A DNA stretch of 34,437 bases from Candidatus Solibacter usitatus (GTDB lineage Bacteria > Acidobacteriota > Terriglobia > Bryobacterales > Bryobacteraceae), in contig JACPVQ010000097.1 of NCBI GenBank assembly GCA_016191645.1, positions 1-34,437 of the forward strand, written 5' to 3'. Made by a program: the position numbers and the translations under genes. Numbering within the stretch: position 1 is the stretch's first letter; each line of letters begins with the position of its first letter. Shown here one piece after another: positions 1,499 to 30,575 of this stretch. The notes beneath the pieces were generated by a model, which saw nothing but the letters and a program-made list of their open reading frames with translations, did no database searches and was not told the origin of the DNA.

Positions 1499-1806
1499 GT
1501 GGGGTCAGGTCTCCAGACCTGTCCCTATGGGCCTCGGGGCCCACGAATCGTGATGAAAACCGATGTGGGGTCAGGTCTCCAGACCTGCCGCGGGATCTCC
1601 AGATCCCGCATGGCCTCGCAAGAGGCCATCGGCTGCTTTGCAGCCGCCCGGGAGATTGCGATTACTTCCGGCAGAGCCGGTCTGGAGACCGGCTCGCAGA
1701 TCTGGAGATCTGCCCCACACAAACTCGGGGAATGTCCAAACTCGAGCCGCGGGATCTCCAGATCCCGCATGGCCTCGTCAGAGGACATCGGCTGCGTAGC
1801 CGTTTC
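1499..1806. repeat. Intergenic multi-hairpin repeat cluster A: partial unit at 1499, flank module F2 (1524-1564), near-complete unit A1 (1565-1718, inverted relative to B/C/D), partial unit A2 (1747-1803)
   Basis: gtggggtcaggtctccagacctg...gcgggatctccagatcccgcatggcctcgcaagaggccatcggctgctttgcagcc...gccggtctggagaccggctcgcagatctggagatctgccccac. Modules recur at 3.9, 6.4 and 30.3 kb. Confidence 0.93.
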
Positions 1807-1842: not shown

Positions 1843-2697
1843 TTACCGTAGCCCTACTTCAATTGGCTCAGCCGTAGCCGCATCCGTACGAACCTCGGCA
1901 TCGGCGTGTCCTTGCACCAGCGTCACCGGATAACCGGCGGAGACCTCGCCCGCCACGGCGACCCGGAAGACTGCCTGATGCCGTGTTCCTCCGGCACAGT
2001 AGAGACGGATTTTTCGCGCCGCCAGGATGTCCCTCATTCCGCATGTTACCGCCATGGGCGGAATGGCCTGCGAATCGCCGCCCGCCGAATGGATGCTCTG
2101 CACAACGATGGAGTCGTCGCCCAGAGGCAGCACGCGCGTCAGAGATTGCCGCATCTCCTCGACGCTGACCCGGTTCCACCGTGAAATCACCGGCTCATTG
2201 AAAGCGACGTGGCCGTGATAGCCGATGCCGCCGAAGCAGCAGTCAGCGCCTCCCACGCGCTCCAGTTTCTCGCTGAATTCGTCGATGCGAAAGGGATGCG
2301 GAGCCACGTGTTGTTCAGGCGGCATCGCCAGCAACGGATCAATCTTCGCAAACAACTCGCTCTTGAGAAAACCGGTGAAACTCAGCGCATGATCTTCCGG
2401 AATCAAGCGCCCCTGCCAGTCCAGAAACTCGTCCATTTGAAATACCCAGACATTGCGCCAGGAAAGTCTCTCGCGATTTGTGATCTCCACCAGCAGAGGA
2501 TATTGCTTCACCGGGCCCACGGGGAGAATCAATCGCGCCGCGCGGTCCTCTTCATTCGCTCTCCGGATCTCATCCGCAATCGTTCGCGCGAAGTCCGCGA
2601 GCAATGCGGGGATGTCCGCGAACAACCGGAAAGGGATGCGCGCACGGCGCTGCAATTCCTCCACGGGAAGGCTCATCAGCACGGCGTGGTCCATCAT
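1843..2697 (-). CDS. Glucosamine-6-phosphate deaminase/isomerase-like protein (NagB superfamily)
   Basis: Translated motifs VFQMDEFLDWQGR and FGGIGYHGHVAFNEP match the NagB family layout. Confidence 0.85.
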   Translation of the reverse strand: MMDHAVLMSLPVEELQRRARIPFRLFADIPALLADFARTIADEIRRANEEDRAARLILPVGPVKQYPLLVEITNRERLSWRNVWVFQMDEFLDWQGRLIPEDHALSFTGFLKSELFAKIDPLLAMPPEQHVAPHPFRIDEFSEKLERVGGADCCFGGIGYHGHVAFNEPVISRWNRVSVEEMRQSLTRVLPLGDDSIVVQSIHSAGGDSQAIPPMAVTCGMRDILAARKIRLYCAGGTRHQAVFRVAVAGEVSAGYPVTLVQGHADAEVRTDAATAEPIEVGLR

Positions 2698-3918: not shown

Positions 3919-4052
3919 GGCAGAGCTCCAGCTCTGCGAGACGGTCTCCAGACCGTCTCTGCCGGCAGTGATCGCAATCTCCGATGACGGCTGCGTCGCA
4001 ACAGAAACGGCTGCGTTGCAGCCGATGGCCTCTGATGAGGCCATGCGGGGTC
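3917..4052. repeat. Intergenic multi-hairpin element B (right end degenerate)
   Basis: gggcagagctccagctctgcgagacggtctccagaccgtctctgccggcagtgatcgcaatctcc...ggctgcgttgcagccgatggcctctgatgaggccatgcggggtctggagatttt. Same module order as the other copies. Confidence 0.9.
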
Positions 4053-5389: not shown

Positions 5390-6202
5390 CGCTGGAAGAC
5401 GGCCGGAAAGAAACTCCGATAGATCGGTTGCCACGAAGCGCAGACCCACAAAAAACGAACCGAAGAGCGCGTACACGGCGCTGACTTCGTCAAAGCGCAT
5501 CTCATAAATGAGGTGCTTAAATACCAGAGGATCGTCGGCAAACAGATCGACTCCCCATTCCCAATCGTCGAAACCAATGGAACCGGAAATGATCTGCCGC
5601 ACTTTTCCCGCGTAACGCCGCCCGATCATGCCGTGCTCTTTCATCATGCGGCCGCGCTGCGCCATCGATTCTTCGTACCAGTTTTTAGTTTCGCCCCGTT
5701 TCCGGTCCATCGGGTAGAAACAGACATAGCGCGAAGAAGGAATATCGGGAAGCAGGCGCGGAAGCATTGCCTCCCGCTGCCGCTGCAGGACTTCCTCGAT
5801 TTTCTTGTCCCATTCTTCGGAGTGCGGTTGAATGCCCTGCTCCATCAGCTGGTCGTATGTTTTTGCAGTCGAATCGTACAGGCCGAGTTCCACCACGGAA
5901 AGATACGAATTCACCGGCTCCAGATAATCGCCGATCGCGAGCCGCGAAAGACTAAGCTGCACTTGCGCCAGTTCCTCGAAGGAAGGACGGAAATGGATCA
6001 GCATCAAATCGGACTTGTGGCCCAACAGCGCGAAGGGCGCGCTGTGTCTGCCGTCTCCCAGAAACGACGCAGTTTCCTCGGCGATTTCTTTTTGGCTGTT
6101 TTCCGGAAGCGCGCGCCAGGCCGCCCACTTCACGCGCATCATCTGATGCAGGACGGCGGACCCGTCGAGCGTCAACGGCATCGCCGGAGCGGACGTGGTC
6201 AT
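5384..6202 (-). CDS. hemQ: HemQ/chlorite dismutase-like family protein (probable coproheme decarboxylase)
   Basis: YPMDRKRGETKNWYEESMAQRGRMMKEHGMIGRRYAGKVRQIISGSIGFDDWEWGVDLFADDPLVFKHLIYEMRFDEVSA. The listed ORF extends upstream through tandem repeats; start set to 6202 (MTTSAPAMPLTL). Confidence 0.9.
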   Translation of the reverse strand: MTTSAPAMPLTLDGSAVLHQMMRVKWAAWRALPENSQKEIAEETASFLGDGRHSAPFALLGHKSDLMLIHFRPSFEELAQVQLSLSRLAIGDYLEPVNSYLSVVELGLYDSTAKTYDQLMEQGIQPHSEEWDKKIEEVLQRQREAMLPRLLPDIPSSRYVCFYPMDRKRGETKNWYEESMAQRGRMMKEHGMIGRRYAGKVRQIISGSIGFDDWEWGVDLFADDPLVFKHLIYEMRFDEVSAVYALFGSFFVGLRFVATDLSEFLSGRLPAL

Positions 6203-6208
6203 TGTGCC

Positions 6209-6401
6209 ACTACTCTCTGAAATCTTTCCAAGCCGCGAAGATTTCCTTGGGTTGCGGTTCCGCTGCCATGTACTACTACTCTGTAGAATCTTCCCAATTT
6301 GCGAAGATTCCCTTTGGTTGCGGCTGCGCTGCTCCGTACTACTAGACTTTGAAATCTTCCTAGGCTGCAAAGATTCTCTTTGGTTGCGGCTGTGCTGCCA
6401 T
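6209..6401. repeat. Three tandem 66-bp repeats, each with an internal inverted repeat (GAAATCTT...AAGATTTC type), upstream of hemQ
   Basis: Anchor ggttgcgg recurs at 6250, 6316 and 6382 (spacing exactly 66). Stems: gaaatctttccaagccgcgaagatttc; gaatcttcccaatttgcgaagattc; gaaatcttcctaggctgcaaagattct. Confidence 0.93.
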
Positions 6402-6634
6402 GTGGGGCAGGCCTCCAGGCCTGCGAGGCGGTCTCCAGACCGCCTCTGTTCCAGCCCATAAGGTTAAGCTGGGTCTGGAGAACCTGATGCACGGTCGACA
6501 ACCCACCCACGGCAACTCCTGCGCGGCCGATGGCCTCTGGCGAGGCCATGCGGGATCTGGAGATCCCGCCGCAGATCTGGAGATCTGCCCCACATCGGTT
6601 TTCGTTATGACTCGTGAGACCCGGGGCCCATGGT
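6402..6634. repeat. Intergenic multi-hairpin element C (6402-6593) plus flank module F2 (6594-6634)
   Basis: gtggggcaggcctccaggcctgcgaggcggtctccagaccgcctctg...gccgatggcctctggcgaggccatgcgggatctggagatcccgccgcagatctggagatctgccccac|atcggttttcgttatgactcgtgagacccggggcccatgg. Confidence 0.93.
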
Positions 6635-6638
6635 ATTT

Positions 6639-7919
6639 TCATACCGTCAGTTTCCACGGGCTGCGGTAGTTATACTCCATCATCTTGCGTCCTTCCGGTT
6701 GCTTGATGGTTTCGCCGTCCCAATCGAGGCGCATTCTGGTGCGCAGCGCGATGTTTGCCAGCAGACAAGTCGCCGTGGAGCGGTAACATTTCTCGATGTC
6801 GGAGATAGGTCTCTGGCGCGTGCGCACACATTCCAGAAAATTTTTCCAATGCGCATCGTTCATCTGGTTGGAGGATTTCACTTCCACTTCCACCAAATCG
6901 GATCCGCGCTCCGGCACTACTTTATACAAGCTGCGATCCACATACAACGTTCCTTGATCGCCATGGAACAGGATGCCGCCGCCTTTGCCGAACATCGACT
7001 GCGCATTACCGTAGCGATTTTCGTAGGTGCAGATGAAGCCGGGATACTCATACGAAGCGTGGATCGTATCCGGTGTTTCGCGATTATCCTTCAACCGGTA
7101 TTTGCCGCCCACGCAGGCGATGCCGGATGGCATAGCCTCGTTGAACGCCATCTGCACAATGTCCAACCAGTGCACGCCCCAATCGGTCATCATGCCGCCG
7201 GCATAATCCCAAAACCAGCGGAAATGGCTGAACGCCTTCGGATCGACGCCAAAACGATTCTTGTTGTACTCGCGCTTCTGCGCCGGTCCCAGCCACATAT
7301 CCCAATCGAGATTCGAAGGCGGCGCTTCATCGGGAGGATTTCCGATGCCTGCCGCTTCGCTCAAGCCGTAGTTCCAAGTGTGCACAGCGGTGACTTGGCC
7401 CAGTTTTCCGCTGCTCACCATCTCCGTTGCTTTTTGAAAATGCGTTCCGGAGCGCTGCATCGTGCCCGCCTGAACCACGCGGTTGTACTTGCGCGCGGCC
7501 TCCACCATCTTCTTGCCTTCATCGATGTAAACGCAGATGGGCTTTTCCACGTAAACATCCTTACCCGCCTTGCAGGCTTCCACCATCATGTAGGGATGCC
7601 AGTGATCGGGCGTCGCGATGCAAACGACATCGACGGACTTGTCCGCCAGAATCTCGCGGAAATCGCGGACGGCTTTCGCTTGCCGCTTCGTCGTCTGATG
7701 TGCCAGTTCCAAATTTGGTTGATAGACGTCGCACACATGCGTGACCGCAACGCTATCCTGCTTCATGGCGAAACCCAGGTTGCTGCGCCCCATGCGTCCC
7801 ATGCCGATAAACGCGGCGTTGTATTTATCGTTGGCGCCCTTCAGGTTGCCGGTGAAGATCTGAGTGGTGAAGGCGGCCGCGCCGGCCTTCAAAAAATCGC
7901 GGCGGTCGTTTTGATTCAT
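6639..7919 (-). CDS. Gfo/Idh/MocA family oxidoreductase with twin-arginine-type signal
   Basis: MNQNDRRDFLKAGAAAFTTQIFTGNLKGANDKYNAAFIGMGRMGRSNLGFA...CDVYQPNLE...EKPICVYIDEGKKMVEAARKYNRVVQAGTMQRSG. Confidence 0.95.
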   Translation of the reverse strand: MNQNDRRDFLKAGAAAFTTQIFTGNLKGANDKYNAAFIGMGRMGRSNLGFAMKQDSVAVTHVCDVYQPNLELAHQTTKRQAKAVRDFREILADKSVDVVCIATPDHWHPYMMVEACKAGKDVYVEKPICVYIDEGKKMVEAARKYNRVVQAGTMQRSGTHFQKATEMVSSGKLGQVTAVHTWNYGLSEAAGIGNPPDEAPPSNLDWDMWLGPAQKREYNKNRFGVDPKAFSHFRWFWDYAGGMMTDWGVHWLDIVQMAFNEAMPSGIACVGGKYRLKDNRETPDTIHASYEYPGFICTYENRYGNAQSMFGKGGGILFHGDQGTLYVDRSLYKVVPERGSDLVEVEVKSSNQMNDAHWKNFLECVRTRQRPISDIEKCYRSTATCLLANIALRTRMRLDWDGETIKQPEGRKMMEYNYRSPWKLTV

Positions 7920-30131: not shown

Positions 30132-30144
30132 GCTAAAAGCTTCC

Positions 30145-30305
30145 CTGTACTGCTCTTTGAAATCTTCTGCTGCTGAGTACCACTGCCCCTTGAAATCTTC
30201 TGATTCTTTGTACTACTGTCTGAAATCCTCTGCTGCTTTGTACTACTGCCTGAAATCTCTTGCTGCTTTGTACTACTGCTACTCTATGAAATCTTCTGCT
30301 GCTTT
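30145..30305. repeat. Five short tandem repeats, units spaced 30-36 bp, consensus tactactgcctgaaatcttctgctgctttg
   Basis: gaaatc core at 30159, 30192, 30222, 30252 and 30288, with gtactactg/tgctgctttg between. Confidence 0.88.
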
Positions 30306-30552
30306 GTGGGGCAGATCTCCAGATCTGCGAGACGGTCTCCAGACCGTCTCTGCCGGCAGCACGAAAATGCCCGATGCGTGATCTGCAGATCCTTCGGCAC
30401 GGTCGAAAGCCCACCCACGGCGGCCACTTCACGGCCGATGGCCTCTGACGAGGCCATGCGGGATCTGGAGATCCCGCTGCAGATCTGGAGATCTGCCCCA
30501 CAGAGCAGCACGGCCGCAACCAAAGAAAATCTTCGCATCCTAGGACTTCGGA
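30306..30552. repeat. Intergenic multi-hairpin element D (30306-30501) plus inverted F1 flank (30502-30552)
   Basis: gtggggcagatctccagatctgcgagacggtctccagaccgtctctgccggcag...gccgatggcctctgacgaggccatgcgggatctggagatcccgctgcagatctggagatctgccccac|agagcagcacggccgcaaccaaagaaaatcttcgcatcctagga. Confidence 0.93.
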
Positions 30553-30575
30553 ATGGCGAGGGAGCAGCATGGAGG

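Follow-up and report, generated by a model that had tools for sequence, protein, structure and literature searches.

Four repeat copies lie in a 34,437-nt stretch of the genome of a soil acidobacterium (the window, meaning the whole stretch that was analysed). They are very probably (about 0.85) non-autonomous REPIN/MITE-like members of a REP-RAYT family in this Bryobacterales-type host, with ends whose hairpin arms covary under selection for pairing. The enzyme that presumably mobilises them in trans is a Y1 (HUH) REP-associated tyrosine transposase (RAYT), whose gene lies on contig C62 of the same genome. The position of the C62 gene and analogy with known systems suggest that its product acts on these hairpins. 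Ends shared with a RAYT gene would explain why the arms may change while the pairing holds and the tip stays fixed.

The genome that holds the window is a 4.47-Mb draft (79% complete, 267 contigs). Stretches totalling 1.74 of the 4.47 Mb and containing 181 element regions were sampled; they were picked partly for element content, so densities in this sample are biased upwards. Whole-genome counts were obtained by pattern searches and not from the sampled stretches.

Element copies and the rules of their ends

The window contains three complete copies (A, C and D) and one truncated copy (B) of an element that consists almost wholly of hairpins, in the canonical layout GTGGGG-H1-H2-spacer-(H6)-H3-H4-H5-CCCCAC. 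About 150 copies, with a unit length of approximately 100-200 bp, are present genome-wide. The span of 6402-6593 from which the initial annotation started is exactly one element, GTGGGG to CCCCAC. The features of the window are as follows.

6402-6593, plus strand: copy C, a complete gene-less element, GTGGGG-H1-H2-spacer-H3-H4-H5-CCCCAC
6402-6406, plus strand: left REP tag of copy C, GTGGG (GT[AG]G convention as in PMC2817692)
6407-6424, plus strand: H1 hairpin of copy C, GCAGGCCTCCAGGCCTGC
6425-6446, plus strand: H2 hairpin of copy C, GAGGCGGTCTCCAGACCGCCTC, apex 20 nt from the H1 apex
6530-6549, plus strand: H3 internal hairpin of copy C, ATGGCCTC-TGGC-GAGGCCAT, with a loop that differs among copies
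6550-6569, plus strand: H4 hairpin of copy C, GCGGGATCTGGAGATCCCGC
6571-6588, plus strand: H5 hairpin of copy C, GCAGATCTGGAGATCTGC, apex 20 nt from the H4 apex
6589-6593, minus strand: right REP tag of copy C, CCCAC (GTGGG on the other strand)
6204-6403, plus strand: a 66-bp repeat in three tandem copies, directly adjoining copy C on its left (flanking module M1)
1565-1718, minus strand: copy A, a complete element
1499-1524, plus strand: partial end adjoining copy A, a single tagged hairpin, GTGGGGTCAGGTCTCCAGACCTG
1749-1768, plus strand: isolated H4-type hairpin fragment beside copy A
3915 to about 4060, plus strand: copy B, truncated at its right end, tag GTAGGG
3920-3937, 3938-3959, 4008-4024 and 4025-4044, plus strand: H1, H2, H6 and H3 of copy B, with H4 present in part
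30306-30501, plus strand: copy D, a complete element
30311-30328, 30329-30350, 30438-30457, 30458-30477 and 30479-30496, plus strand: H1, H2, H3, H4 and H5 of copy D

The two ends of the element are near-perfect inverted repeats of each other, and both strands look alike. The apices read CTCCAG in H1 and H2 and CTGGAG in H4 and H5; moving inward from either end, one therefore meets a tag and then two hairpins, both with the apex CTCCAG. GT[AG]G-tagged hairpins were collected from the 1.74-Mb sample without any requirement on the loop, and 264 were found, with the apex CTCCAG in 212 (203 tagged GTGG and 9 GTAG), CTTCAG in 8 and CTGGAG in 2. The ratio of 212 CTCCAG to 2 CTGGAG indicates a strict apex polarity. 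Two different hairpins share one apex at each end, and in 233 of 235 ends their apices stand exactly 20 nt apart. This spacing is built in two ways: at H1-H2 ends by an abutting second hairpin of 22 nt, and at H5-H4 ends by a 20-nt hairpin and a 1-nt spacer. A pattern search of the full 4.47 Mb returned 299 double-hairpin ends (149 and 150), versus 0 for the reversed pattern.

Recent spread could be a partial cause of the conserved apex. However, the H3 and H6 hairpins of the same elements have paired arms and freely varying loops (TTGC, TGGC, TGAC and others; AAA, ATG, AAC and others), which implies that the fixed outer apex does not result merely from recent copying.

All four window copies lie between genes, and elements in the 1.74-Mb sample are depleted in open frames, in what is a blunt test with spurious frames being common. 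Open frames do run through elements on the minus strand of the window (1525-1788, 6199-6657 and 30133-30570); these are probably spurious, and annotation would wrongly list them as hypothetical proteins, with motifs such as DLQICGGISRSRMAS. Many contigs of the draft (C82, C11, C176, C53, C137 and others) end within an element. The repeats thus interrupt this assembly, and the true copy number is probably higher than that counted. The core of the 66-bp repeat (GGTTGCGGCTGTGCTGC, GTACTACTA) also occurs near element ends elsewhere, with 41 of 44 copies at most 200 nt from one, and where it flanks an element it always points towards the end (33/33 and 42/42). Two further flank modules behave in the same way, and such directed modules indicate that the elements often sit within larger mosaics.

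Matched arm changes across the genome

The initial annotation had reported that both arms of a hairpin change together around a fixed centre. This is exact in all four copies, where the centre is CTCCAG, and every arm pair that it quoted was found. The H2 arms are GAGACGGTCT/AGACCGTCTC in B (3938-3959) and D (30329-30350), with GAGGCGG in C (6425-6446) and GAGCCGG in A (1674-1695, on the minus strand of the window). The H1 arms are GCAGATCT in A (1696-1713) and D (30311-30328), GCAGAGCT in B (3920-3937) and GCAGGCCT in C (6407-6424); those of H5 are CAGATCT in C (6571-6588) and D (30479-30496) and CAGGTCT in A (1572-1587).

The matching arm changes are real and genome-wide. In 421 kb, 142 perfect hairpins have a 2-nt loop, and the centre is CTCCAG/CTGGAG in 113 of them. 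The 181 element regions of the 1.74-Mb sample yielded 592 apices, counted over the three main types of hairpin. Among them, pair 4 of H1/H5 is AT in 194 cases, GC in 85 and TA in 2, with 8 mismatched cells; 87 double changes were seen at this pair, versus approximately 29 predicted under independence. Over pairs 3-4 of H1/H5, 108 double-changed cells were found versus 14 mismatched, one-sided intermediates thus being rare. Arm changes include transversions, for example G-C to C-G. Among the matches listed for the H4 pattern (GATC or GGTC with GATC or GACC), only matched pairs occur.

A formal count was made on 76 distinct ends that were chosen by tag and apex positions alone, leaving the arms free. 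Paired cells made up 96.6% of this set, versus 82.9% after shuffling and at most 38% after sliding, double-changed cells numbered 205, versus 75.6 and at most 25, and the covariation score was 0.379 versus 0.139; the shuffled and slid controls take no account of relatedness. The number of distinct Watson-Crick states nevertheless requires at least 20 double changes (7+6+7), whatever the tree. In alignment A1, helix 2 combines hairpins of the H2 and H4 types and so shows inflated covariation; helix 1 is free of this problem. A tree of the inner region (64 columns, mostly unresolved) served for one pair of elements, L057_7173 and L068_3144, and not for counting events; the two have identical inner sequence and a perfectly matched difference in H1.

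At H1-H2 ends, neighbouring stems avoid having the same upper stem (AT/GT 65, GT/AT 21, GT/GT 2, AT/AT 0; Fisher p of about 3e-18 with relatedness ignored), and at H5-H4 ends AT/AT is the commonest combination. The avoidance at H1-H2 ends could reflect subfamily linkage or avoidance of cross-pairing.

Matched double changes could also arise in the absence of selection for pairing, by arm-to-arm homogenisation, in which a template switch during replication rewrites one arm of a (quasi)palindrome to match the other. Such switching is documented (PMC7202029, PMC8604942), and the rarity of one-sided intermediates, the transversions and the matched H1 change of L057_7173 and L068_3144 are all in keeping with it, although this last change could equally have come about by exchange between copies. 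Homogenisation alone would, however, frequently flip the short spacer from CC to GG, which is at odds with the apex polarity of the tag-proximal hairpins, and it leaves the tag, the 20-nt spacing, the apex common to two different hairpins, the transposase and the free H3/H6 loops unexplained. Conversion between arms, which the initial annotation had offered as its alternative, may therefore well supply the double changes, but it is improbable as their sole explanation.

The RAYT gene and its relatives

A Pfam Y1_Tnp search of the genome gave two genes above the cut-off, on contigs C62 and C167. The C62 gene lies between the copies' own ends, GTGGGG-H1-H2-[RAYT]-H6-H3-H4-H5-CCCCAC (C62:18-735), and this is the only copy that carries a RAYT gene. 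Its left end reads GTGGGGCAGGTCTCCAGACCTGC GAGGCGATCTCCAGATCGCCTC TGCCGGAAGT and is followed by 192 codons and a stop; its right end reads CGGCCGC TAC GCGGCCG (H6), ATGACCTC TGAC GAGGTCAT (H3), GCGGGATCTGGAGATCCCGC (H4), C, GCAGATCTGGAGATCTGC (H5), CCCAC. The inner edges of this copy (TGCCGGAAGT on one side, the H6 and H3 hairpins on the other) are also found in gene-less copies, suggesting that the copies without a gene derive from internal deletion. The 192-aa protein scores 83.1 bits against the NCBIfam equivalog NF047646, REP-associated tyrosine transposase (curated cut-off 80), and 39.8 against Pfam Y1_Tnp (cut-off 23), its sole Pfam domain. It contains the HUH motif NHVH, FWQ and Y-x-x-x-N-P (YIAANP).

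The C167 protein is 51% identical to that of C62, and its gene adjoins an element of the same layout with another apex, CTTCAG (GTGGGGCAAGCTTCAGCTTGC; L137:2605-2716 and 1977-2525, minus strand). Dispersed CTTCAG copies are few (8 tagged hairpins in the sample), and some have CTCCAG-family stems. A broken RAYT relic was also noted at C66:14475-14794 (L049); it lies on the opposite strand to a CTCCAG element, approximately 40 nt beyond that element's tag. A search of the same genome for empty sites, using joined flanks, returned no convincing empty site; its 18 spanning matches came mostly from one window copy and fell on other element copies or flanking modules.

Among the closest known systems are the REP-RAYT (REPtron/REPIN) systems of Pseudomonas, Stenotrophomonas, Marinomonas and E. 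coli. As in these, a GT(A/G)G tag stands 5' of the palindrome, at the foot of a perfect hairpin, the hairpins form inverted doublets in high copy number, mostly between genes, inverted copies of the same hairpins flank a cognate RAYT-type Y1 transposase with HUH and catalytic Tyr, and compensatory changes occur. The likeness would extend, by analogy, to recognition by loop and pairing (PMC2817692, PMC3116915, PMC8266576). For a group-3 TnpA_REP, swapping the stem had a moderate effect on cleavage and a stem mismatch or loop change reduced it strongly (PMC8266576); for such an enzyme, pairing and the letters of the loop matter far more than those of the stem, and covarying arms are therefore predicted. 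Compensatory changes are indeed common in REPINs (PMC3116915). The elements described here differ in having two tandem hairpins per end, with one shared apex and a fixed 20 nt between them, whereas the classical REP definition has no second hairpin; they also differ in their units of approximately 100-200 bp with internal H6 and H3, and in that gene-less copies share inner sequence with the RAYT copy.

Double palindromic terminal inverted repeats (TIRs) around some Y1 genes, acidobacterial ones included, are described in PMC3733652. The acidobacterial cases among the TIRYT/TIRtrons (Koribacter and Terriglobus; Di Nocera et al. 2013) likewise combine a Y1 transposase with flanking TIRs, some of them doubly palindromic, and some ends here (GTGGGGTCAG or GTGGGGACAG) fit the GGGGWSAS motif given there for TIRYT ends (PMC3733652). 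In contrast, the gene here is adjoined by GT(A/G)G-tagged hairpins and its protein passes the REP-type equivalog model. The HTH-tailed subclass (2.1), which takes in 20 of 26 TIRYTs, was rejected: in the 192-aa protein Pfam finds Y1_Tnp only and no additional C-terminal domain, and tagged hairpins stand at both ends. The class 3 TnpA-Y1 of Solibacter usitatus, with approximately 600 hairpin copies, the foot CnGA and a Y----Q motif (Quentin et al. 2018), shares the acidobacterial host and the high-copy secondary structures around a Y1 gene; it was set aside on the foot GT(A/G)G and the motif Y-x-x-x-N-P (YIxxNP) found here. IS200/IS605 transposases (IS608, ISDra2) share the HUH Y1 enzyme and subterminal hairpins read as single strand, but the C62 protein fails their equivalog model (30.1 bits, cut-off 55).

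In the nearest genomes, RAYT homologues with 45-59% identity are flanked by GT(A/G)G and two tandem hairpins, and in most cases the two have an apex motif in common (such as CCCC, TTCA, GTC, GGC or CTCG). The apex spacing ranges from 17 to 21.5 nt and is equal or nearly so on the left and right (19/19, 18.5/18.5, 21/21). A wider scan detected 40 tagged ends in the acidobacterial set, 28 of them with two hairpins, versus 2 of 49 detected elsewhere; an apex 3-mer was common to both hairpins in 24 of these 28 double ends. A second hairpin turned up in 2 of 970 shuffled flanks. A quick protein tree needs 3 changes to account for the double layout, versus a shuffled mean of 15.1, and places 17 of 18 double-layout cases in one acidobacterial clade (SH-aLRT 94).

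REP, RAYT and REPIN systems, REPIN covariation and double palindromic TIRs are already published. What is new here is the two tandem same-apex hairpins per end and their 20-nt spacing; a search of the open-licence literature, covering the text of PMC3733652, found no description of same-apex paired hairpins at a fixed register as the rule of a clade.

Pairing at the DNA level and the proposed recognition of ends

The hairpins might instead be protein-binding or cruciform sites kept by the host (for gyrase or HU, or terminator-like) with no role in mobility. The location of all four window copies between genes would suit such sites, and classical REPs bind host proteins (PMC2817692); but a RAYT gene sits between the same ends, and a survey of 200 genomes of the family showed abundant CTCCAG double ends in this one only (299), one other genus having 11 and G001 having 2, which is unlike a conserved host function. 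This explanation is thus very unlikely. A terminator reading was rejected, as a T5 tract stands just outside an end in just 2 of 181 elements.

Least probable of all is a structured RNA (a regulatory RNA, 3' UTR or attenuator) in which selection acts on a transcribed hairpin array: compensatory changes are a classical RNA sign and the elements fold stably (as single-stranded DNA far better than shuffled, z = -5.6 for C and -9.3 for D), but the mismatches on the CTCCAG strand are 39 G.T and 43 A.C, so that G.U is not in excess on either reading, the window has 0 Rfam matches at the gathering threshold, T-tracts are scarce and the strands look alike, with ends that are near-perfect inverted repeats. 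RNA selection would tolerate G.U, and the symmetry of the mismatches, free of any wobble bias, consequently carries no RNA signature. A tRNA search found none. Of the selection for pairing that the initial annotation had proposed for an RNA hairpin or a DNA cruciform, the pairing constraint is upheld and the RNA level is not; these observations and the RAYT gene between the same ends point to DNA handled by a transposase.

If the elements belong to a REP-RAYT family as proposed, their ends would fold in single-stranded DNA, such as the lagging-strand template. The RAYT would read the tag, the apices and the spacing between them, requiring paired stems and little stem sequence; it would then cut at the tags and spread the segment, gene-less copies included. 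Covarying arms around a fixed centre would result from selection for pairing; template switching from arm to arm, which alters both arms at once, probably supplies the changes. More tentatively, and at slightly worse than even odds, the recognition unit in one acidobacterial RAYT clade may be a tandem pair of hairpins that present one apex word twice at a set distance and are read together as a two-loop address. Word and spacing would differ with each transposase, amounting to a swappable loop code on drifting, covarying stems.

What began as an odd sign of covariation is traced to a defined mobile-element system, a caution against taking covariation in genomic repeats as proof of RNA. The approximately 300 ends in one genome, together with related elements that have other apex words, form a natural library of the stem and loop variation that a REP transposase accepts. 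With a fixed 20-nt two-apex layout in one transposase clade, the reading of two hairpins at once by RAYTs becomes testable.
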